A stretch of 64,000 bases of DNA from Diacronema lutheri (Eukaryota > Haptophyta > Pavlovophyceae > Pavlovales > Pavlovaceae), in the NCBI GenBank assembly GCA_019448385.1, contig JAGTXO010000010.1, positions 868,001-932,000 on the forward strand, read 5' to 3'. Made by a program: the position numbers and the translations under genes. This document shows, piece after piece, positions 8,001 to 20,214 of this stretch. Each line of letters starts with the position of its first letter. Position 1 is the first letter of the stretch. The notes under the pieces were generated by a model. That model did no database searches. It saw only the letters and a program-made list of their open reading frames with translations, and was not told the origin of the DNA.

Positions 8001-9054
8001 CGTGCGCGCACGCGGCGCGTAGGAGCGCGCGCGCCTCGCGTGTGGGCACGGCGCGCGGCGCGCCATCACTGTTGACGGGCGCGGCGCGCGCGCGCGCGCC
8101 GCGCTGCGCCGCGAGCAGCGCGAGGGTGAGATCCCATGCGGGCGCGAGCGCGCGCGCGTCGACCTCGGCGCCGAGAGCGCGCGGCAGCAGCGGCCACGCC
8201 CTCGCGGCATAGTTGGCGGCGAGGGTGGGCGCGCGCACGGCGACGGCGGCAACAAAGCGGAGTGCCGCCGTACGCACGCGCGGCGCGCGCGCGCGCTCGG
8301 CGAGCGCCCACAGCTCGGGCGCGTCGAGCAGCGGCCGAGCGTCCGCGTCGAGCGCCGCGCCTAGCCGCGCCGCGCGCTCAGCGGCGGCCGCGTCCGCGTC
8401 GGCGGCGTCGGCGGGGGCGCCGTCGACGGGCAACGCAGTTGCCGCCGGCAGCTGCGCGCCCACCTCGCCGATAGCGAACGCGAGCGCGTCAAGCGTGCTC
8501 TGCAGCGCGCGCGCGGCCGCGTCGTCCGCCTCGACCGCCGCGCCATCCGCCTCCGCGGCGGCCGAGGCGCGCGCGCTCAGGTAGGGCGGCGCGGCGGCGA
8601 GGACGGCGGCGGTCGAGCGCGCGAAAAGTTCGCGCTGCGCGAAGAGCAGCGCGTCTGCCCGCTTGGCCCGGCTGGGCAGCATCGCGGCGAACGCGCCGGA
8701 AGCCGCCGCGGCGACCTCGGGCGCCGCGTCGCACGACGCCCAGAGAAGGGGCGGGAGGAGGGCGCGGAGGTGCGGCGCGAGCGCGCGGCCGAGCGTGCTG
8801 CCAAGCACGCCGAGCAGTACGCACGCCTGCTCGCGCACGCGCCGCGAGCCATCCGCCGCGAGGCGCGCGAACGGCGGCACAAAGTGCGGTAGGAGCTCGG
8901 CGCACTGCGCGGCGCGTGCGGGCTCGCGCGCGAGTGCGAGGAGCTCAGCGAGGCCACGGAGGCGCGTCGTCTCGTCCTTTTTCGCCAGCTTGCGCAGCAT
9001 CACAACCACGTCGGCGGACAGCGCCGCCTCCGCCTCGAGCGCGGCGCGCAGCAT
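2937..9054 (-). CDS. LTN1: Listerin-type E3 ubiquitin ligase, three exons
   Basis: Exons 9054-3591, 3507-3419 and 3293-2937 join in frame to 1969 residues (human LTN1 is about 1770). The N-terminus has the family signature MLRKLAKKDETTRLRG, then a long Ala-rich HEAT-like solenoid. Near the end, LFEATKQLPALVRGWW and FEQIDEA match the Listerin RWD-proximal region. The small second exon supplies DGFSVRTSRAAREVVAVYEL. The third gives the RWD end and a C-terminal RING (CPIC...CRTCANKFHSACLYKWF...CPLC). Listerin works in the ribosome-quality-control complex, ubiquitinating nascent chains stuck on 60S subunits. Intron 3508-3590 has a GC donor (GC-AG), and intron 3294-3418 begins GTGCGG. The ATG at 9054 is chosen because the sequence upstream belongs to the opposing gene. 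Confidence 0.9.
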
Positions 9055-9136
9055 CTTGCGGGGCGATGCGTCGCCGCCGGGCAGGACGCAAGATGGCGGC
9101 CCAAATTTTGGTGCAGGAGGTCGGACGTGAGGCCTG
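9055..9136. promoter_or_regulatory. 82-bp bidirectional promoter between Listerin and SFI1-like gene
   Basis: Only 82 bp separate the two divergent ATGs. The spacer holds AAGATGGCGGC at 9090-9100, identical to the initiator/YY1-type element of TATA-less promoters elsewhere in eukaryotes, followed by a short AT-rich block (CCAAATTTTGG-like). The ATG inside this element also opens a 14-codon upstream ORF (see next entry). Shared promoter function is inferred from spacing alone. Confidence 0.45.
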
Positions 9137-9137
9137 A
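9093..9137 (+). CDS. Possible 14-codon upstream ORF overlapping the SFI1-like start
   Basis: ATG at 9093 opens 14 codons (MAAQILVQEVGREA) and stops at TGA 9135-9137. The last base of that stop is the A of the next ATG, giving TGATG. This layout is known to permit termination-reinitiation. Whether it is transcribed depends on the start site: if transcription begins downstream of 9093, the uORF does not exist in the mRNA. Confidence 0.3.
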   Translation: MAAQILVQEVGREA

Positions 9138-12100
9138 TGCCCGCGGCGCTCGCCGCGCTGCGTGAGCGGCTTACGCAGCAGCTGCTGCCATGGCCGATCC
9201 CGTGCGTCGCCACCGCCGCGCCGCTTCGTACAGCGGCACGCGTGGGCTCCGCGCCGCTCATCGAACGCGCGATGGTCGAGCACGCCTCGTGCGCCCGGCA
9301 CGCAAACCTCTGCCTCGCCGTCGTATCGGCGCGGCGGTTCGCGGCGGCGGACGTGGCGAGCCGGATGGCGCTCGCGTGCAGCGGCGCGGCCGTTCTTGAC
9401 GGCGCGCCGCCGCCGGGCTGGCGTACGTGGATCGCGCTCGCCGCGCGGCGTGCGCTCGGCCGCAGGCTCGCTGCGCTCGACGGGGCCGCCGGCCGCCCGC
9501 TCGGCGCGCGGCTGCGGCTGCGCGCCGCGCTGCGCGGCCTGCGCCCGGCACGTACGGCACGCGCCGCGCGCGCGGCGCTCGCGCGCTGGCGCCAGCGTGG
9601 CGCCGCCACGGCGCTCGCGCGTTGGGTGGACGCGGCGTGCGCGGCGCGCGGCGCTCGGCGCGTCGCGCGCGCGCTCGCGCGCGTCGCAGAGGGCCGCGCA
9701 TTGCGCGGCTGGGCGGAGGCGGCGGCGGGCGCAGCGGCAGAGTCGCGCGGCATGGAACGCGCTGCGCGCGCGCTCGCGCAGGTTGCCGCTGGGCGTGCGC
9801 TCCGCGGCTGGGCGGCTGCGGTCTCGGCGGCCATCGTGGCGCACGCGCGCGCCGGGCGCGCCGTGCACGCTCTTGCGCACGGCGCGCAGGGCCGCGCGCT
9901 GCGCGCGTGGGCGGATTTGGCGGGCGAGGCGAGTGAGGCGCAGCGCCAGCGCGCGCGCCGCGCCCAGCGCGTCGCCGCGCGTTGGCGGCTGCGCGGCACG
10001 GGCGAGGCGCTCGACTCGTGGCGAAAAGGCGCGAGCGAGCGGCGCGCGTTGGCGCGCGCGGCCGCTCGGCTGCTGCGGCGCGAGCTGGCGGGCGCGTGGA
10101 ACGCGCTCGCCCGCGCGGCGGCGGGCGCGCAGCACGCACGGGCCGTCGGCGAGGGCGCGCTGCGCCGCTGGCTCGCCCGCGCGCCCGGCGCGGCGCTTGT
10201 GGCGTGGGCGGACGGCGCAGTGCGCGGGCGCCATGCGCGGCGCGTCGCGCGCCGCTCGCGGCTCGGCGCGGCAGCGCGCGCGCTGAATGCGTGGACCAAG
10301 GCGGTGGCCGCCGCGTCGGCCGCGCGATGGCGCGCCGCGCGAGCGGGCGCGCGCGTGGCGAGACGCACCGAGGCGGCCGCGCTGAACGGCTGGCGCGAGG
10401 GCGCGGTGGCGCGTCGGCTCGTCCGCCGTGTGGTCGCGCGCCTCGCGCGCCTGCCGCTCGCGCGCGCGCTCGGCGCGCTCGGCGAGCGCGCGGCGCGCGG
10501 CGCCGAGCTCGCGCGTCTCGCGCGCCGCCTCATCTTGCGTCGGCGCCTCGGCGCAGCGGGCGGCGCGTGGGACGAGTGGGCGGCGGAGGCCGCGCGCTGG
10601 GCTCGCGCGCGCCGCGCGGCGACGCGTGCCGCCGGCCGGCTGCGGTTTGGCGCGGCGTCGCGCGCCTTTGTCCTCTGGGCGGTCGCGGCCGCGGCGGGCG
10701 CGCGGGTCGTGCGCGCCGTCGCGCCTGCCGCCTATGCGCTGCGCGCGGGCGGCGGCGCCTTGGTGGGCCGTGCGCTCCGCGCGTGGCGCGGCGCCGCCGC
10801 GCGCGCGCGCGCCGCCGCGCGCGCGCTCGTCGCGTTGCGGCACGGCGACGCCGGCCGCGCGCTGCGAGCGTGGCGCGAAACGGCGGCGGCAGGCGCCGAG
10901 GCGCGCGCCGCCGGCGTGCGCGCGCTGCAGCGGTGGCAGATGCACGACGCAGCGCGCGCGCTCGTGCGCTGGCGTCACGCGGTGCGTGACGCGGTGGTCA
11001 TGCGGCGCGCTTTCGCGCGCTGTGCGCGCGCGTTCACGGCCTTTGCCTTCGCATCGCTCGCCGCGGCCAGCGCGGGCGCGCGCGCGGGCGCGCGCGCGGG
11101 CGCGCGCACGCGCGACCTCGCCGCGCGCGCCGCACGGCGAGGTCTCGGCGTGGCAGCGGCGTGGGCGGCATGGACGGCGCGCGCGGCGGTCGTGCGCGCG
11201 ATGCGCGCGTGCGCGCGCCGCTGGCGCCTCGGCGGCGCCGCGCGCGCGCTGCGCCGCTGGGCTGCCGAGGCGGCGGCCGCGTGCAGTGCGCGCGCACGCG
11301 CGCGGCGCGCAACGCTAAGGCTTGCGGGCGCGGGCGCGGCGTGGCGGGCGTGGCGCGAGCGCCGGTTGCGCAGGCGCAGCGCGGCGCGCGCGGCCGCCGC
11401 CGCCACCGCGCGGTGGGCTTCGCCGGCGCTCGCCGCAGCGTGGACGCGATGGCGCGGGGCAGTGGCGCGCTATGCGCGCGCCGCGGCAGGCGCGCCCGTC
11501 CGGTTCGGCGCGCTTTCCGAAGATGCGCGTGCGATTGTCGGCTGGTTGCACGCGCAGGGCATCTGCGCCCACCCACCGCGCGCGCCGCTTGCGCCGACGC
11601 GCAGGCTGCTCGGCGCATTGTGGGCGGCGTGTCACGCCGACGCCGCAGGTCCGCCCGGTGCCGCCCTCGCGGGCGGGGGCGGCGGTGAAGCGTGGCGCGA
11701 TGCGCTCTCTTCGCTCGCGGTGCTCGGTGACAGCGGTAACGCGACGGCAGCCGACGATGCGCGGCTCGCGTCCCTCTTTGCCGAGCTGACGCGCCGCGCG
11801 GCGAGCGCCGGCGCGGGCGGCGAGGCCGCCGTGCCCGCCGACGGCGACGTCTGCTTCGCCGCCCGGCGCGTCGCCGCGCGCGTCGCGGCAGCGGCGGCGC
11901 GCGGCGGCGTGGGGCCACGCATGCTCGTCTCCGAGGCGTGGCTCGACGGCGTGCCCGCCTTCCTGAGCGTCGCGACCGCAGCTGCGACGTGCGCGCGCGG
12001 CGCTCGGCACGTGGGTGCCGCGCCAGACGCGCAGCCGCCTGCGCCCGCCCTCATTCGCTTCGGCGCCGGGCAGCTCGCCGCCGCGGCCGAGGCGGCAGCC

Positions 12101-12991
12101 ACACAGCGACGCAGGGCGGCGGCAGAGGCGCAGGCGGAGACGCGCGCGCGCGCGCGGCAGCGCAGGCCAGCTCCGGCGCGGCCGGCAGCGCCCACGGACG
12201 CGCCGGTCGACGCGCCGTTGCCGGTGGACGCGGCCATCGCGCCGTGCGGCACGCAGCGGCGCGCGAGCGCGCCCGCGTGCGTCGCTGGCGCTCCGTCGTG
12301 TGCGCCCGCGCCCGCGTGGTGCGTGGACGGGATTGTGCGCGCGCCCGAGGCGCGGCGCGCGAGCGCGCCGGCGCGTGCGAGCGCCGTGCCGCTCGCCGCC
12401 ATCGGAGCGGCGGCGAGCGACGAGCGCGCGCGCACGGACACGGCGGCACGGCGCGCGCGTCCTTCGACGCTGAACACGCTGCGCGAGCACGCGCCGCCCG
12501 ACGACGTGGACGTGGGTGCTGCGCCGACGGATGCGCCGCGCGGCGCGCCCGGCGCGCGTGCGCGCGCGCGGAGCGCGCGCGCACGCGCGCAGCAGCAGCA
12601 GGCCGCGTGCGCGCGCGCCGCGCGTGCGGATGGTCAAGGCGCGCGCGGGGTCGCGCTTGTCGGCGTCGGTGGCGCGGGCTCCGCGGTCGCTGCCACGGGG
12701 TGCGCGCCGCGCGGGCGCGTTGGCGGCTACGGCCGTGGGCTCAGCGTCGGCGGGAGCGCGGTGGAGATGGTGGCGTGGGAGCAGAAGCAGATGCGAGGCA
12801 GCGGACTACCGCTCGCGGAGGCTGGGCTGTGGCCGTCGCAGCCGCGCGGTGTTGGCGGCGCGATGATGAGCGCGCTTGCCGCCGCGACGCTCAAGGCGAA
12901 GCGGCAGGCCGCGGCGAGCGCGGGCGCGGGCGCGGGCGGCCGGGCCGCGCCCGGGCCCGGCCCGTGGGATTGGCATTGGGTGGACGATTGA
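9137..12991 (+). CDS. SFI1-like helical-repeat protein (centrin-binding candidate)
   Basis: A single open frame of 1284 residues. From about residue 130 to 780 it repeats a unit of some 30-36 residues built on [RA]AL..W (for example GRALRGWAEAA, GRALRAWADLA, AALNGWREGA, RALRRWAAEA), about 16 copies. Tryptophan-anchored alpha-helical repeats rich in Arg are the hallmark of SFI1, the centrin-binding backbone of spindle-pole bodies, centrioles and basal bodies. The C-terminal third is Ala-rich with a conserved-looking stretch around RFGALSEDARAIVGWLHAQG. Arg and Ala dominate, so coincidental composition must be kept in mind; the regular Trp spacing argues against it. It lies head-to-head with Listerin. 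Confidence 0.65.
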   Translation: MPAALAALRERLTQQLLPWPIPCVATAAPLRTAARVGSAPLIERAMVEHASCARHANLCLAVVSARRFAAADVASRMALACSGAAVLDGAPPPGWRTWIALAARRALGRRLAALDGAAGRPLGARLRLRAALRGLRPARTARAARAALARWRQRGAATALARWVDAACAARGARRVARALARVAEGRALRGWAEAAAGAAAESRGMERAARALAQVAAGRALRGWAAAVSAAIVAHARAGRAVHALAHGAQGRALRAWADLAGEASEAQRQRARRAQRVAARWRLRGTGEALDSWRKGASERRALARAAARLLRRELAGAWNALARAAAGAQHARAVGEGALRRWLARAPGAALVAWADGAVRGRHARRVARRSRLGAAARALNAWTKAVAAASAARWRAARAGARVARRTEAAALNGWREGAVARRLVRRVVARLARLPLARALGALGERAARGAELARLARRLILRRRLGAAGGAWDEWAAEAARWARARRAATRAAGRLRFGAASRAFVLWAVAAAAGARVVRAVAPAAYALRAGGGALVGRALRAWRGAAARARAAARALVALRHGDAGRALRAWRETAAAGAEARAAGVRALQRWQMHDAARALVRWRHAVRDAVVMRRAFARCARAFTAFAFASLAAASAGARAGARAGARTRDLAARAARRGLGVAAAWAAWTARAAVVRAMRACARRWRLGGAARALRRWAAEAAAACSARARARRATLRLAGAGAAWRAWRERRLRRRSAARAAAAATARWASPALAAAWTRWRGAVARYARAAAGAPVRFGALSEDARAIVGWLHAQGICAHPPRAPLAPTRRLLGALWAACHADAAGPPGAALAGGGGGEAWRDALSSLAVLGDSGNATAADDARLASLFAELTRRAASAGAGGEAAVPADGDVCFAARRVAARVAAAAARGGVGPRMLVSEAWLDGVPAFLSVATAAATCARGARHVGAAPDAQPPAPALIRFGAGQLAAAAEAAATQRRRAAAEAQAETRARARQRRPAPARPAAPTDAPVDAPLPVDAAIAPCGTQRRASAPACVAGAPSCAPAPAWCVDGIVRAPEARRASAPARASAVPLAAIGAAASDERARTDTAARRARPSTLNTLREHAPPDDVDVGAAPTDAPRGAPGARARARSARARAQQQQAACARAARADGQGARGVALVGVGGAGSAVAATGCAPRGRVGGYGRGLSVGGSAVEMVAWEQKQMRGSGLPLAEAGLWPSQPRGVGGAMMSALAAATLKAKRQAAASAGAGAGGRAAPGPGPWDWHWVDD

Positions 12992-13184
12992 CGAAGTCGG
13001 GCGCCGCGCGCCGCGTCATCCCGCACTCGGCGCGCACGCGCACGCGTGAGCTGTCCGCTGTCGGTCACTCCCGCGACTGTGACCTCCTGACACTGTGAGT
13101 GAATTTTCACTCCACCGGTCCCCCCTCTCCGTGCACCGTCGCGACACCCGCCAACGACCGGTTTTGAGGAGGGCGGGCGGGCCT

Positions 13185-13484
13185 ATGGTTTGCCCGTACC
13201 GGCTGGTCACGACGGCCATCACGGCGGTGCTCAGCATCTTGTGGATCCGCAAGGCCACTGCGCCGCCGCCTCTGGCACACAACGTAGCCGCAGCGCGCGA
13301 AGGCAGCGCGCAGCTCGGCGCAGACGAGCAGCTCGCCAAACCGACAGCCGCGCCGCGCCGCTGGACCGCGAGCACGGTGCTTCTCGTGATCGGCCTGGTG
13401 CTCCTGCACATCGACCTCCTCGTGACAGGCTACCTGCGCGGCGCGCTCAAAGGCTTCGTTGCGCAGCTCATCGCGCCCAAATGA
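13185..13484 (+). CDS. Small two-helix membrane protein, unknown function
   Basis: ATG at 13185 gives 99 residues. Two hydrophobic segments are evident: YRLVTTAITAVLSILWI near the start and TVLLVIGLVLLHIDLLVTGY near the end, separated by a polar Ala-rich loop, and the protein ends APK. It could be a mitochondrial or ER small membrane protein; I do not recognise a family. The frame is open upstream of the ATG but without another ATG. The short AGTGAATTTTCACT dyad at 13096-13109 lies in the leader. Confidence 0.45.
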   Translation: MVCPYRLVTTAITAVLSILWIRKATAPPPLAHNVAAAREGSAQLGADEQLAKPTAAPRRWTASTVLLVIGLVLLHIDLLVTGYLRGALKGFVAQLIAPK

Positions 13485-13944
13485 CGGCCGCGCGCGCCGG
13501 CGCCACGCCGCGGCGTGCGCGCGTCTCGCGCGAAGGTGCGAGGCGAGCTGCGCCCCGCGGTTTTAGACGCGGTGATTTCGCGGCGCGCTGCCGACCCGGC
13601 TCGCTTTCCGACTCGCTTGACGCATATGGCTTGGCGTGCCTCACAATCGCGTCGAGCGTTTACCGCTCACCGTGCACATCTTTGCCGCGCGCCGCCGGCA
13701 GCGACTGAGCTGCAGCTTGTTTTGCTCGGGCAGGCGCTGGCCTGTCTTTCTCGCGTTTTGTGCCCGTCGCCTCGCAAGCCCGAGCAGCAGGCCGCCGGCG
13801 TGACACGTGAACTGACATTTCAGTCACTGATCAGTGAGTTGCTTTTCCTCGAGCGTCGGCGAAAGCTTCAATGAATTTCGTCTCGGCTTTTTTTGGCCGG
13901 CTGGGCGAATCGTCGCCCCTACGCGCGACTTCGCCGGGCACAGG
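13485..13944. promoter_or_regulatory. 460-bp upstream region of the temptin/b561 gene with palindromes
   Basis: No gene seen. It contains a perfect 14-bp palindrome TCACTGATCAGTGA at 13824-13837, about 110 bp before the ATG, embedded in TGAC/GTCA-type dyads (ACTGACATTTCAGT at 13811-13824). A dimeric transcription-factor site is a plausible reading but unproven. Confidence 0.35.
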
Positions 13945-15348
13945 ATGGGGCGCGCGCTCCTCGCCGTCGTGGCTTTTCTCGAGCTCGCCGCCCCAGCCTT
14001 CTCGCGATTCTGGTACGCCGATAGGCTGCCGAACAGCAATCTCGTGCCCGGCACGTCCGCGCTGGGCCACGTTGAGTACGGCGGCGGCGGCGAGGTCAAC
14101 GCGTTTGGGCGCGACTTCGCGAGCGCGACGTACGGCAACTACGAATGGACGACGGCGCTGTGCCGGCGTGACTCGGATGGCGACGGCGTGCCTAACGGCG
14201 TGGAGCTTGGCGATCCCCTGTGCATTTGGATCCCGGGTCGGACGCCGTCATCGAGGACCGGCATCACCCACCCCGGCGTGGCTGACGCGCCCTTGGCGCC
14301 GCCGTCCCCACTGCCGCCCACGCCGCCATTACCCTCACCGTCACCGCCGCCATCGCCGCCGCCGCCCGCGCTGCCGCCCACGCCGCCGCCCACGCCGCCG
14401 CCCGCGCTGCCGCCCGCGCTGCCGCCCGCTTCCCCGCTGTCGCCGCTGCCGCCCACGCCGCCACCACCCTCACCGTCACTGCCGCCATCGCCGCCGCCGC
14501 CCGCGCCACCGCCTACGCCGCCGTCCACGCCATCGCCCTACCCGCCGTCCTCGCCGCTGCCGCCCCCGCCACCCGCGTCGCCGCTCGCACCATCCGGCGG
14601 ACCGACCGCCGCGCCCGATGGCTTTGGCGGCTCGGCCGGTGGCTCGGCGAGCAGCCGCGGTGGCGGCGGTGGAGGCGGCGGTGGCAGCGGTGGGGCGGCT
14701 GCAGCCCCCGTCGCGGGCGCAGCCGAGGCCCTCGGCGCTAGCGGCGCGTCGCCGGCGACCGCGCGCGGAACTGGCGCGCCGCGGTGGCTCATCGCGCATG
14801 GCATGCTGATGAGCGCGGCGTGGTGCGTGCTTGCGCCCGCGGCCGCTGCCGCCGCCGCGGCGCGCGAGCGCATGGGCGCGAACTGGCGGGCGCGCCATCA
14901 GCGCCTGACGCTCGCGGCGTGCACGACGACGTTGGCGGCCGGCGCCGTCGCGGTTGCGTCGGCCGGCGCGCACGCAAGCAGTGCGCATCAGATCATCGGC
15001 CTTGCACTGCTCGGTCTTGTCGCCCTGCACACAGCCGGCGAAATTGCGCGCCCGCGCGCGCTCGCGGCGCTCGCGGGAGCGGCGCGCCGCACCAACGCCG
15101 ACGACTCGGTCGAGGGGCACGGCGTCGTTGGCGCCACTGGCGTCACCGTCCGCGTGTTGGCAGGGGCCGACGTCGTCGCCCGCACGCCCACCGACCCCGT
15201 CAAGCCGCCTCGCGCGCGGCGCGTTCAGTGCGCGTGGACAACCGCGCGCGCGCACGGCGAGCGCGCGCTGCTCGCGCTCGGGCTCGCCAACATCGGACTC
15301 GGAATAGCGGCCGCGCTAGGGGGGGGCCTGCGGTCCCCGTGGGACTGA
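13945..15348 (+). CDS. Secreted temptin domain fused through a Pro-rich stalk to a cytochrome b561-like domain
   Basis: 467 residues from ATG 13945. Residues 1-20 form a signal peptide. Residues 21-112 are a temptin-type Cys/Cys domain: Trp, Cys73, RDSDGDGVPNGVELGDP and Cys93, then THPG, with Ca-binding-like DSDGDG. Residues 114-212 are a Pro/Ser/Ala stalk rich in PPSP and PPTP, resembling hydroxyproline-rich wall proteins, followed by a Gly linker. Residues 281-375 look like a b561 membrane core: RWLIAHGMLMSAAW (His286), ARHQ (His319), AHQIIGLALL (His349) and His363, and a last helix lies near residue 445. b561 proteins carry electrons across membranes, often from ascorbate. The architecture suggests an extracellular sensing or binding head coupled to a redox membrane anchor; the function is inferred. 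Confidence 0.7.
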   Translation: MGRALLAVVAFLELAAPAFSRFWYADRLPNSNLVPGTSALGHVEYGGGGEVNAFGRDFASATYGNYEWTTALCRRDSDGDGVPNGVELGDPLCIWIPGRTPSSRTGITHPGVADAPLAPPSPLPPTPPLPSPSPPPSPPPPALPPTPPPTPPPALPPALPPASPLSPLPPTPPPPSPSLPPSPPPPAPPPTPPSTPSPYPPSSPLPPPPPASPLAPSGGPTAAPDGFGGSAGGSASSRGGGGGGGGGSGGAAAAPVAGAAEALGASGASPATARGTGAPRWLIAHGMLMSAAWCVLAPAAAAAAAARERMGANWRARHQRLTLAACTTTLAAGAVAVASAGAHASSAHQIIGLALLGLVALHTAGEIARPRALAALAGAARRTNADDSVEGHGVVGATGVTVRVLAGADVVARTPTDPVKPPRARRVQCAWTTARAHGERALLALGLANIGLGIAAALGGGLRSPWD

Positions 15349-15447
15349 CTGAAGTGCCAATCGTGGAAACTCGCCGGCTCCCATCTCGGGATTCATCAAG
15401 CCGGCCTCACGCGAGACTGAAATTGAGCGCCCGAGCCGCGAGTACGT

Positions 15448-15470
15448 AGGCGCAATATACAATTGCGCCT
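15448..15470. repeat. 9-bp-stem hairpin in an AT-rich islet
   Basis: AGGCGCAAT (15448-15456) and ATTGCGCCT (15462-15470) are perfect inverted copies around a 5-nt loop. A second CAATTGCGC follows at 15488-15496, and AGTAC/GTACT boxes flank the block. It lies 150-170 bp before the next start codon, in the 271-bp spacer 15349-15619. It could be a cis-element of the next gene or a 3'-end structure of the previous one. Confidence 0.4.
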
Positions 15471-15619
15471 AGCGTCGTTAGTATACACAATTGCGCGAGT
15501 ACTGCGGGTTGAATACCGAGAAAAGCCGTTCGAGAACGTTCGCACGGGGAAATCACGCGGGGAAAATTTCGCCGCGGCGATTTTGGCACGCGGCACAGAC
15601 CGAACAAGCTACCCAAAAC

Positions 15620-18091
15620 ATGCGCAGCGTCGGCCTCGCGCTCCTCCTCGCCGCCGTCTCGGCCAACGCGTTCGGCGCGTTCCACCCCTCGGCGCCCTGC
15701 CATGAGCATCCGTGCCCGATCTGCCCGACGTGCCACGTCTGCCCCAAGCCCCCAGAGCCGGAGCCGATGACCTGCCCGGCGCTCATCGACCACCTGCAGG
15801 CGGACGATGCCGACGCGGCGCTCCTCAAGATGGCCTACTCGGCCGGCGACGCGACTGCCTTCCTGACGTACATCAAGGACGCCAAGCCCGTCGGCTACCA
15901 CACCGACCTGATCCCCGAGGCGAGCGACGCGGTGCAGACGAACGCTCCGGTCATGGTGCGCGCGTTCGCGCCGCGCGCGTGCCTTTGCGCCGCGCGCTCA
16001 TCTCGCTCGCGCACTGCGCGCCCCGTCTTGGGCGCGCGCGTGTGCACTCGTCCTTTTCGCGCAGGACGGCAAGAGCGGCGATGTCGACTTCCCGCACGGC
16101 AACCTTAAGCCGCTCGTCACCGTCGGCGAGTACTTCCCGGGCAACGGCGAGTTCCACGTCGGCGTGCCCGACGGCATGGGTGCCTACCTGCACGACGACG
16201 CGACGGTGCGCTACGTTGTTCAGAGCGAGAGCTACGGCCCGCTTCTCTACGAGAGCTTCCCCTGGGCGGTGAACGACGGCGCGGCAAGCTTCACCGGCTC
16301 GCACATCCAGTACGTTGACATCGACCGCGAGATGCTCTCGACCTTCATGGAGCACAACCGCAGCGCGGCGCCGATGATCAAGCACGCGGGCAACCTGGTC
16401 AGCAAGGCGTACAACCTGAAGGGCGAGCCCGTCGGCCCGCGCGCAACCTCCGGCCCGACCATGACCGGCGCGCACCTCTCGAACACGGACGCGGCGGGCA
16501 ACTTCGTCGTCGGCAACAGCGCGCCAACCCCGCCGACGTACGCTGACTGGCTCATGCAGTCGCTCTGCTCGGCGCACCTCGAGGTGAAGCACCAGTGGGG
16601 CCCGACGTACGGCGTTGAGGACAGCCTCTACCTCACCAACGAGGGTGCGGCGCGCCGTCGTGCAGCGCCGCCCTGTGTACGTCCGGCCGCTGACCGAGCG
16701 CCTTCCGCGCGTTCGCGTTCGCAGAGTGGAACTCCGTGCCCGCCGGCGTTGATTATGTCGGCCTCTCCGCGCACGCGCTCAACCTCGCCACCAAGGAGCT
16801 CTGGGCCGTCGGCGCCTTCGGCCTCGGCGGGTACGAGAAGATCGTCGAGATCAACTCGGGCAGCTCGACGTACGTCGTGTTCTCCCCGTCCGGATACAAC
16901 GGCGATTTTGGCAACGTGGAGAGCACGCTCACGGCCAAGCGCAACGCGGCGTACGGCCCCCGCTCGGACAACACCAGCTGGGTCGGCTCCTCCAACGTCG
17001 TGCCCGCGCGCATCTACATCGGCAAGAAGGGCTTCAACGCGCACGGCGAGGCGGCGACCGACTTCCTCTCGCGCAACGGCCTGGCGTACGGCCAGAACTA
17101 CGGTTTTGCGACGAACGTGGCGAGCACGACGGGCGGCCTGTACCGCGATGCCTGGCACAAGGATGCGACGCGCATGAACGGCGACACCGTCACGGGCGGT
17201 TTCTTCCCGATTGAGTGGCGCTGGAACGGCACGGTGACCAACTTTGAGCACGACGGCGCGTGGGGCTTCCAGGAGATGCCGGTCGGCGCGCCCTCGGGCA
17301 CCACGTTCTGGACGCCGTCGGGGCCGAACTCGGCCGGTTCCAAGTCGGAGCACAACACGCCGGACCCCACCGGCGCGCACGCCTTCTACCAGGGCTCGAC
17401 TGCGGGCTACGTCGGCCATTACTCGTTCCCGACGATCGGCACGCTCCTGCAGTCGCTCACCGGCGACGACTTCCCCGCGTCCGTCCCGGCCGACTACAAG
17501 ATGCTCGTGGGTGAGCTCGACGTCTCCGGCCAGATCGTGCTCGGCGGCAAGGGCATTCGCGCCGACAGCAACGACCAGACGCTCATGGCCGACAGCACCA
17601 ACGGCAACGGCAAGGTGACGTTCGAGGACATTGACGGCATCGAGGCGCTCTCGTCGCCGACCGGCACGCACCTCATCATCCAGGAGGACGGCGGCAACCA
17701 CTTCGGCGAGCGCATGTTCATCACCAAGGCGCGCACGGACGGCACACCCATGTCCTTCAACTTCATCGCGCAGTCGGGCGGCAAGCGCAACACGCGCATG
17801 CTTGCCGGCGTTGGCATCCCTGCGGGCACCGCCAGCGATGCCAACTCGCACGAGTTCAGCGGCATCTTCGACCTGTCCGGCCTCCTGTTCAAGTCGGGCA
17901 CCTCGTTCTACGTGTCGGCGTCGGACACGGGCTACAAGAAGCGTCTCGCGGACGCGCTCGTGCCGATCAACGACAAGCTGATCGCGATCGGCCTGCAGGC
18001 GCACAGCATGTCCAACGGCGTGATCGCCGGCTTCCGCTGCGATCGCGGCGGGCAGGTGCTCATCTACAAGCCGCACCTCACGATGGCGTAG
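15620..18091 (+). CDS. Large secreted protein, possibly DUF839/PhoX-like beta-propeller, three exons
   Basis: Exons 15620-15955, 16065-16644 and 16725-18091 join in frame (donors GTGCGC and GTGCGG) to 760 residues. A clear signal peptide (MRSVGLALLLAAVSANAFG) is followed by a Cys/Pro-rich neck (CHEHPCPICPTCHVCPK), then a long globular body. Repeated motifs such as VPDGMGAYL, YGVEDSLYLTNEEW and LIIQEDGGNHFGERMF resemble the EDG-type loops of DUF839/PhoX phosphatase-like propellers. It may be an atypical algal extracellular phosphatase. The similarity is loose and from memory, so the family is a guess; secretion is firm. Codon use is strongly biased to C/G third bases, as in highly expressed genes. 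The AT-rich hairpin upstream may belong to its promoter. Confidence 0.6.
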
Positions 18092-18231
18092 AGCGCAGCT
18101 CGACGTCGAGCGGCGAGGTGAGGATGACGAGGCGTGTGAGGCACGAGCACCTCGTGCCGCTCTTCGCCACGGTTGTGGGAGGGACAAATGGAGGAGAGGA
18201 GCGAGAGTGAACTGTTTCCTTTCAGACCAAA

Positions 18232-19418
18232 TCAGTATGTCCACCAGTTGAGCAGCAGCCAACCGGCTGCAGCGGCGCTTGCCGAGATGGTGTGCACAGG
18301 CTCAGGCCCGTCGAAGAACCCGAGGATCGCCGCGGCGGACGCGGCGATCCACGCGCCGTTCACCAGCGGCAGGTAGCTCGGCGGCCTCAGCCGGCGCTCG
18401 GCGGGCACGCGCGAGACGCGCGCCGTGTCCGTCCCGTCGGGCACGGTGACGAGCACGTCGGCGTAACGGCTCATGTCCGCGTAGAGCACGTTGCGCAGCA
18501 AGTAGAGCGGATGGACGAGCGTCGACAGCGCCGGCTCGTACTCGGCGTAGAAGCGCGCGGCGTGCGGCACGCGCTTGTAGACGACGACGTGGCACTGTGC
18601 GTCGGAGCGCGGCGCGGTCGGCGCGGTCGGCGCGTCGCGCGCACGGCGCGGTCTGCGGCGGCGGCGTCGCGCGGGCGGAGCGGCAGCGCGGACGGCAGCG
18701 CGGACGGCAGCCGGACGGCAGCCGGACGGCAGCCGGACGGCAGCCGGGTGCGCGCACGTTGCGCGGGCAGATCCTGTGCTCGCGCTCAAAGAGCTCAATC
18801 AGCGCCGCTTTCGGCACGAGCCGCGGCCGTCGGACGAGCCCGACCCACTGCAGGCCGGATGTGGTCCACTGCCACCCGCCGCGACGGGAGAGGAGACGGG
18901 AAGAGACGGGCGCGCGGGAGGTTGCACAGGCAGAAAAGAGCGCGTGCTGTGAGGGATGGAGAAGCCACGCGGGAGGGCGGGTAACGTGCTGCCCGCCCTT
19001 TCAAAAGAGCGGCGCGCGACACAGCGCGCGCAATCACCTGCGCGCAGTTGCCTGAGACCGAGAGAAGGCGTTCTTCCCGCCAAAACCACGAGGTGGGCGC
19101 CAGAGGCCGCGCCGCACCGTCGCGCGGTGGGCGCTCGTCGGCGCTGTGGGCGGCGGCTTGCGCGGCCTGCCCACCGGCGCGCTCGCTCAGCTCGCCGCCG
19201 CCACTCACAACCTCGCGCGCGCCGGGGAAGAGGCGCGACTTGAGCAATTTGATGAGCGCGTCGACTGCGGGCGGCAGGTGGCCTGCGATGAAGTTGTTGA
19301 AACGGCCGCCAAAGAGCTCGAAGCGCGCGAGCGCGCGCGAGGCAGTGCGCGGGTTCAGCGGCGCGTCAAGCAGCGACGCGGCGCCGGCCACCGGCTCCGC
19401 GCGAATCTCCGAGCGCAT
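18232..19418 (-). CDS. Uncharacterised protein with C-terminal membrane helices, three exons
   Basis: Exons 19418-19038, 18868-18758 and 18594-18232 give 284 residues; splice phases agree (all phase 0). The conserved-looking core is WVGLVRRPRLVPKAALIEL, then FEREHRICPRN, then CHVVVYKRVPHAARFYAEYE. It ends in two hydrophobic stretches (NGAWIAASAAAILGFFDG and a terminal AAAGWLLLNWWTY). I do not recognise a family. The first exon is less certain: its last third is Ala/Gly-rich and an internal intron cannot be excluded. Its ATG is only 37 bp downstream of the stop of the next minus-strand gene. An 11-bp GGACGGCAGCC-type short repeat lies inside the second intron (18696-18747). Confidence 0.45.
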
Positions 19419-19455
19419 CTCGAGGGCCTATGCTCCGCGGGGCGGGGTCCGACGG

Positions 19456-20214
19456 TCAGCGCCGCCGCACGCGTGCCGGGATTAGCGGCGCCGCGCCAAC
19501 GGTTGCGGGAGGTGGGGGCTGTGGGAGGGTCGTGGGGCGCGCGGCAGCAGCTGCAGCGGCCGCGCGCGCGCGCGCGCGCGCCTGGAAGTAAGCGTGCAGC
19601 GCGTCGGCGACGCCGACCGGCGCCCGCTCGATGCGCACTCCAACAATGTCGCGGTTGTATGCGCCGCCCTGTTGGCACCAGCCGTCAAACGCGTCGGTCC
19701 CGTACAAGTACTCCTCGGGGCGGCCAAAGTTGACCATGCGCGCGCCGCGGTCGAGCGCGGGGCCGCCAAGGATGTTCATTACCCACTGCTTGCCGTCCGA
19801 TGTTGTGTACCTGCGTGCGCGAGGGCCTTCGTGTGCTCGCGGTGAGCGCGCTTCACGCCGCCGCGCGCGCGGCGCGGCGCGCGCGCGGCGCGGCGACCTG
19901 ACGAGCAAGTGGCCGAGCGCGATGACGTTATGATGCAGGAATCGCGAGAGCGGGTTGCCCGTGTACGCCAGATGCTCGGTGACAAGCACCTCCACATCAG
20001 GCGGCCGCGGGTCGTGCGGGCAGATCGCGCGATCAACGTCTTGCAGGATCGTCGCCTTGTTGGCGATGCACGGGCCGCCGAGCGCGCCAAACTGGAGTGG
20101 TGCACGCGGTGTCGAACCCGCGGTGCTTGCAAGCGCGCGCCCGCGCAGCCACGATCGCGCACCAAGCATGCCAACGCGCATCAAGCGCATTCTCAAGTGC
20201 CCGGCCGCCATCAT
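19456..20214 (-). CDS. Probable mitochondrial protein of unknown function, two exons
   Basis: Exons 20214-19898 and 19810-19456 (intron 87 bp, GTCGCC...CGCAG, with a GCTCAC element) give 223 residues. The start MMAAGHLRMRLMRVGMLGAR is Arg/Ala/Met-rich without acids, typical of a mitochondrial presequence. The body has well-conserved-looking stretches (CIANKATILQDVDRAICPHD; RFLHHNVIALGHLLVRYTT; MVNFGRPEEYLYGTDAFDGW) and ends with an Ala/Pro tail. Conserved His/Cys/Asp residues hint at an enzyme, but no family is recognised. ATG 20214 is preferred to upstream in-frame codons because the divergent gene starts at 20281. Confidence 0.55.
   Translation of the reverse strand: MMAAGHLRMRLMRVGMLGARSWLRGRALASTAGSTPRAPLQFGALGGPCIANKATILQDVDRAICPHDPRPPDVEVLVTEHLAYTGNPLSRFLHHNVIALGHLLVRSPRRARAAPRARRREARSPRAHEGPRARRYTTSDGKQWVMNILGGPALDRGARMVNFGRPEEYLYGTDAFDGWCQQGGAYNRDIVGVRIERAPVGVADALHAYFQARARARAAAAAAAARPTTLPQPPPPATVGAAPLIPARVRRR

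Follow-up and report, generated by a model that had tools for sequence, protein, structure and literature searches.

A temptin domain joined to a cytochrome b561-like membrane core in a small protein family of the haptophyte Diacronema lutheri

A single reading frame of Diacronema lutheri joins an N-terminal temptin domain to a membrane core resembling cytochrome b561, and we read this gene as a member of a small family in which a presumably extracytoplasmic temptin domain is mounted on a four-helix b561 core. The gene lies in a stretch of 64,000 nucleotides of contig JAGTXO010000010.1 (hereafter the window). Two further intact genes elsewhere in the genome (L001 and L002) share its domain order, and the core can be traced to cytochrome b561 by comparison with b561 proteins of the same alga. 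The window copy departs from its paralogues at the fourth putative haem-ligand position, where arginine stands in place of histidine.

Gene model and relatives in the genome

The frame opens with the ATG at 13945, the earliest one in frame beyond a stop at 13828, and continues uninterrupted to a TGA at 15346-15348; its features are collected in Table 1. By hydropathy (1.71 across residues 4-22), the leader is likely a signal peptide. An earlier note on this DNA had proposed a temptin head with a cysteine pair and an acidic motif, a proline-rich stalk followed by a glycine linker, and the union of head and membrane core in one gene, all of which was borne out. The same note had left the number of helices at four or five. 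Past the linker, four hydrophobic segments align with those of the two paralogues. A fifth hydrophobic stretch (residues 394-412, with Arg403) falls within the loop joining helix 3 to helix 4, and the hydropathy scans of L001 and L002 show nothing equivalent; homology supports four helices in the window copy.

Table 1. Features of the temptin-b561 gene in the window (residue numbers refer to the encoded protein)
Feature	Position	Strand	Basis and remarks
Whole gene, 467 aa plus stop	13945..15348	+	Translation, in-frame stops; same order in L001 and L002
Hydrophobic leader, likely signal peptide (residues 1-20)	13945..14004	+	Hydropathy
Temptin domain (residues 23-112), Cys73/Cys93, DSDGDG 76-81	14011..14280	+	PF24784, E 3.6e-25
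Proline-rich stalk, residues 115-225 (111 residues), 57% Pro	14287..14619	+	Translation; comparison with paralogues
Gly/Ser linker, residues about 226-250	14620..14694	+	Translation
Helix 1 (287-305), H1 = His285 directly ahead	14803..14859	+	Hydropathy, alignment
Helix 2 (321-339), H2 = His318 at helix start	14905..14961	+	Hydropathy, alignment
Helix 3 (350-368), H3 = His348 directly ahead, His362 inside	14992..15048	+	Hydropathy, landmark count
Arg435 at the H4 haem-ligand position	15247..15249	+	Same position from both flanking landmarks; nearest His is 437
Helix 4 (441-459)	15265..15321	+	GLANIGLGIA, homologous to GLVNVALGIA of L001

Relatives were sought by a six-frame search of the alga's own genome (43,492,796 bases, 103 contigs) with PF24784, the resulting counts being lower bounds. 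At least four temptin places were found, each above the cut-off of the model, and the core or its remains accompany temptin at all four; three of these places hold genes that are intact in a single frame, the other a decayed copy. L001 (contig C4, 361 aa) and L002 (contig C15, 291 aa from its ATG) are both intact and run in one frame from temptin through a linker to four helices. Their linkers are short and rich in Ser/Asp or Glu, and the proline stalk is absent from both; wall anchoring, as suggested in the earlier note, therefore fails as a trait of the family. At the fourth place (contig C82), temptin is spread over two reading frames (L004), and some 0.65 kb further downstream the same strand bears a core match with an in-frame TGA (L014); we read the whole as a decayed temptin-b561 copy. 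The head of the window copy is 56-58% identical to those of L001 and L002 and its first three helices (TM1-3) are 32-38% identical; between L001 and L002 the corresponding values are 56% and 38%. The window copy is a divergent family member, with a head as conserved as the others.

The surroundings of the gene are GC-rich, with 64-84% in 2-kb steps across the window; for the published assembly of D. lutheri, 73.25% GC is given, and 45% of its coding sequences are given as single-exon (PMC8379373). Among five neighbouring open frames, one has a Pfam match at E<=0.1, namely a small membrane-protein-like frame just upstream (13095-13484, plus strand), whose weak match to prokaryotic b561 (E 0.057, below cut-off) is probably due to chance. 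Further upstream, a 1284-residue open frame (9137-12991, plus strand) contains many 'RALRGWA'-like repeats and has no Pfam match at E<=0.1. Downstream lies a secreted-looking, apparently multi-exon gene (15620-18091, plus strand), three open frames of which are without a Pfam match at the same threshold.

Descent of the membrane core

The Pfam models of b561 gave no match to the window copy at E<=10. On L001 and L002, PF03188 reaches 17.2 and 19.4 bits respectively, short of the 23 bits set as its cut-off, and its search of the genome gave five places without a temptin gene among them. The b561 assignment of the window copy hence relies on its paralogues and on profile comparison; on these grounds the b561-like core proposed in the earlier note is supported, though not by a Pfam match of its own.

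A genome search with the core of L001 led to six places: L001, L002, the window copy, the decayed copy on C82, and two further loci, L013 (E 2.6e-5) and L015, which pass PF03188 with 37.4 and 24.8 bits. The four ligand positions H1-H4 line up in the alignments of L001 with L013 and of L002 with L015, and the alignments of the window core with L013 and with L015 both cover H1-H3. Judged against 500 shuffles preserving the hydrophobic pattern (class-preserving), the pairwise scores correspond to z values of 14.3 for L001-L013, 15.2 for L002-L015, and 6.2 for the window copy with L013, each being reached by 0 of 500 shuffles. Toward the more distant b561 proteins L005, L007, and L008, the z values of the temptin cores range from 1.2 to 4.5, those against L005 (1.2, 1.2, and 2.5) not being significant.

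A profile of the three temptin-protein cores was then set against a profile of five b561 proteins from the same genome (hhalign), yielding a probability of 98.0%, an E of 2.5e-13, and a score of 87.7. This score was reached by 0 of 61 scored shuffles (top 24.0), the 19 of 80 shuffles that remained unscored being left out, as were 16-20 of 80 per query throughout these controls; the reversed b561 profile scored 15.8. The window core alone gave a probability of 28.6% with E 0.0006, and 0 of 64 scored shuffles reached its score. The b561 profile in turn matches solved b561 structures (4o6y, E 7.6e-7; 5zle, E 7.5e-4). A PDB sequence search with the three-core profile returned no b561 and two unrelated matches, the best of them (E 0.06) a designed protein, and a single-sequence model of the core had a mean pLDDT of 54.5, too low for use. 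By sequence comparison, we conclude that the core of the temptin proteins descends from cytochrome b561.

Two readings would deny the gene this identity. The core could be an unrelated four-helix membrane protein that looks like b561 merely through its Ala/Leu/Gly-rich composition, for which the silence of the b561 Pfam models on the window copy, the non-significant scores against L005, and the weak Pfam listing of DUF4079 and DUF2427 for L001 and L002 (and of PepSY_TM for L002) could be cited. However, the pairwise scores that no shuffle reached and the clean shuffle and reversal controls of the profiles stand against this, making it very improbable. Still less credit is due to the idea that head and core are two genes fused by chance, long open frames being frequent in this GC-rich genome, even though the 11-kb region 9000-20000 is overlapped by 57 open frames of 100 aa or more. 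L001 and L002, both on other contigs, join head to core through linkers of their own without a break in the frame, and even the decayed place on C82 has both parts in the same order and on the same strand; we dismissed the two-gene reading on the intact single-frame paralogues. The core is hence treated below as b561-derived and as part of the same protein as the temptin head.

Putative haem ligands and the changed fourth position

L001 and L002 have four histidines in four consecutive helices (H174/207/237/333 and H127/160/190/266, respectively). In the window copy, His285, His318, and His348 correspond to H1-H3 and keep the 33- and 30-residue spacing of the paralogues. The earlier note had listed His286, His319, His349, and His363; the first three match the family once the numbering, one too high, is corrected, while the last is in fact His362, which sits within helix 3 and was discarded as H4. 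Whether one counts forward from the AW/IF landmark that precedes helix 4 or backward from the GIA/GIQ end of that helix, the H4 position is occupied by His333 in L001, His266 in L002, His273 in both L013 and L015, and Arg435 in the window copy, leaving the four-histidine set of the latter incomplete.

Two neighbouring positions are changed as well. Arginine is found at H4-7 in L001, L002, L013, and L015, and Gln428 in the window copy; in Arabidopsis HYP1, the equivalent R307 (H4 being H314) is a modelled ascorbate contact (PMC10784544). At H4+4, which is described as a small-residue position in eukaryotic b561 (PMC10691727), the same four proteins have glycine and the window copy has Glu439. 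A basic residue at H2-11 is present in the window copy, L001, L002, and L013, with glycine in L015. With changes at all three positions, the side of the window copy that faces the cytosolic haem and ascorbate would be altered. Two-haem conduction is likely for L001 and L002 and doubtful for the window copy, given arginine rather than histidine at H4; the latter is probably a poor conductor, relies on a shifted ligand (His437), or has a core that serves chiefly as a mono-haem or structural anchor of the long-stalked head. A trans-membrane reductase with a calcium-binding antenna, one of the options in the earlier note, suits the paralogues best and the window copy less, which is short of four haem histidines. 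The presence of paralogues with and without H4 in one genome makes the role of the cytosolic haem testable.

How far the window copy has moved from a two-haem protein can be read in more than one way. It is possible, at somewhat less than even odds, that it is a non-redox paralogue whose b561 core has decayed to a plain membrane anchor, in which case the long-stalked temptin would serve in adhesion or recognition. The three altered positions around H4, the better conservation of the head relative to TM1-3, and the 111-residue proline stalk found in neither L001 nor L002 are consistent with this; but H1, H2, and H3 are retained at their proper spacing together with the basic residue at H2-11, and since the identities between L001 and L002 resemble those of the window copy, the latter is not clearly faster evolving. 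Rather unlikely, in our judgment, is the opposite view that two haems are still held by means of a substitute H4. His437, two residues on, lies at the start of helix 4 and is followed four residues further by Ala441. His392 in the third loop lies 44 residues past H3, where L013 and L015 have H4 at 42 and 38, with Gly396 four residues past it and the hydrophobic stretch 394-412 behind, and when the window core is aligned locally with L013, the best alignment places His392 opposite the H4 of L013. Yet position 435 is obtained from either flank and neither histidine is in the register of the paralogues; helix 441-459 matches their fourth helix, while stretch 394-412 holds Arg403 and is without a paralogue counterpart, and the local alignment with L015 ends past helix 3.

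Temptin head, predicted topology, and related systems

PF24784 (Temptin_C) matches the head of the window copy with 88.7 bits against a cut-off of 27, and those of L001 and L002 with E 1.2e-31 and 1.8e-27. The cysteine pair and the DSDXD motif are invariant in all three intact copies. As the DSDXD motif of temptin is described as a conserved calcium-binding EGF-like site (PMC10075465), the algal head probably binds calcium, judging by this motif. Two weak matches of L001 on the DSDGDG stretch, to TSP3_bac (E 0.003, below cut-off) and to diheme_GEGP (E 0.00077, 18.8 bits against 300), were set aside as motif resemblance. A Met/His haem, as proposed for the DOMON heads of CYBDOM proteins (DOMON plus cytochrome b561), is not expected in the window head, which has no methionine. 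A PDB sequence search with the head gave nothing relevant (three matches, best E 0.53), and its single-sequence model, with a mean pLDDT of 36.0, was likewise too poor for use.

In CYBDOM proteins, DOMON and the N-terminus are described as lying outside, ahead of a core formed by TM1-TM4; in b561 proteins in general, H1/H3 hold the non-cytoplasmic and H2/H4 the cytoplasmic haem (PMC10691727). The temptin cores fit the CYBDOM order of H1-H4 in helices 1-4, and leader and head precede the first helix by hydropathy. Basic residues are absent from loop 2 in all three copies and number 2-4 in loop 1 and 7-11 in loop 3; as loop 3 also holds 5-8 acidic residues, with a net charge of about +6 (window copy), +2 (L001), and 0 (L002), the charge distribution lends mild support to an N-terminus-outside orientation. 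The cores end 7-14 residues past the glycine of helix 4, where L013 and L015 continue for 82 and 69 residues, leaving no room for more helices and marking them as minimal four-helix cores.

For the family we favour, at odds somewhat better than even, a CYBDOM-like trans-membrane reductase in which temptin replaces DOMON. In the scheme that we infer, the core of the paralogues would bind two b haems, one held by H1/H3 on the outer side and one by H2/H4 on the cytosolic side of a plasma- or endo-membrane. Electrons would most likely pass from cytosolic ascorbate to the inner and on to the outer haem, which would then reduce an outside acceptor; a ferric or cupric ion, monodehydroascorbate, or a partner docked on temptin are our guesses here. 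Temptin, in the place of DOMON, would serve as a disulfide-bonded, probably calcium-binding module that brings a partner or substrate to dock close to the outer haem. For HYP1, ascorbate-dependent currents have been measured and the outer histidine pair H211/H278 is reported as critical (PMC10784544).

The CYBDOM proteins (Arabidopsis HYP1, human SDR2, fly CG8399) are among the closest parallels, likewise carrying a head before the core, with H1-H4 in helices 1-4 and in HYP1 an arginine at H4-7 as in L001 and L002; the extracytoplasmic head and outside N-terminus described for them are the predicted arrangement in the algal proteins. The algal proteins differ in carrying temptin and no DOMON, in having no helices past the fourth, in the distance from H3 to the H4 position (76-96 residues), and, in the window copy, in the loss of H4. 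No DOMON match was obtained in the three intact copies at a maximum E of 10 (the HMMER filters dropping most above about 0.1), and searches with DOMON PF03351, CDH-type DOMON PF16010, and PF03712 gave no match in the genome; as the control genomes were equally silent, this does not amount to absence. Single-domain cytochromes b561 such as AtCytb561 and Dcytb, described with six helices and no head (PMC10691727), contrast with the four helices of the temptin cores.

The temptin of Aplysia is reportedly a water-borne pheromone protein and is said to be the 'glue' of a pheromone complex, a part that would fit a docking head. The algal head shares with mollusc temptin the whole domain, the cysteine pair, and the DSDXD motif; unlike the water-borne Aplysia protein, for which two disulfides are described (PMC2762978), it is tied to a membrane core, and the window head has one cysteine pair. 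What is known of temptin concerns mostly its part in mollusc pheromones, and a role in shell formation has been suggested (PMC10075465); among the shell proteins of abalone, one is entered as similar to tyramine beta-hydroxylase/temptin (PMC6003135). With temptin-like proteins reported from the secretome of Phytophthora infestans (PMC3091767), the occurrence of temptin beyond animals is not new.

A corresponding exchange of heads is on record in Lophotrochozoa. DBH-like monooxygenases share an N-terminal DOMON, and temptin is found there instead in Pomatoceros, Aplysia, and Lottia (PMC2762978). The algal proteins repeat this N-terminal exchange, although the partner is a mono-oxygenase in the animals and a membrane b561 in the alga. 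While the exchange itself is thus already published for animals, its occurrence on an algal b561 core is a new variant. DOMON commonly heads both redox families, and by analogy temptin would have replaced it in both, a parallel that we consider the most interesting part of these data. Different heads on cores of the same type amount to a natural experiment on the contribution of the head, the role of the DOMON heads in CYBDOM proteins being called unknown (PMC10691727), and temptin gains a possible redox role outside animals. As a long shot, temptin might replace DOMON quite generally, as a module for redox partners that eukaryotes placed ahead of redox proteins on two or more occasions (in animal DBH-like monooxygenases and in algal b561). 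On this view, the free temptin of snails would be the released form of a module whose first task was the docking of metals or redox partners to a reductase in the membrane, and the calcium site and disulfide of the head would gate or receive the electron.

Our literature search found no paper combining temptin with cytochrome b561, a result that concerns publications and says nothing about protein databases, and among papers on temptin and algae none was, by title, about an alga. Searches for temptin or the fusion by exact or short-peptide patterns confirmed none of 577 matched stretches in prokaryote genomes and none of 165, 8, and 33 in IMG/VR viral contigs, distant temptins being able to escape such patterns.

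Other heads were noticed on b561 cores of the same genome. L013 (1138-2259, minus strand) and L015 (1189-2271, minus strand) share another Cys-rich head with a GYLxDxLCW-like start, HTVHCM, and SGFGVLE; it has no Pfam or NCBIfam match and, next to temptin, is the second head of an unusual kind seen on b561 cores here. In L007 (319-2067, plus strand), a long N-terminal region without a Pfam match at E<=1 represents a third type ahead of the b561 core.
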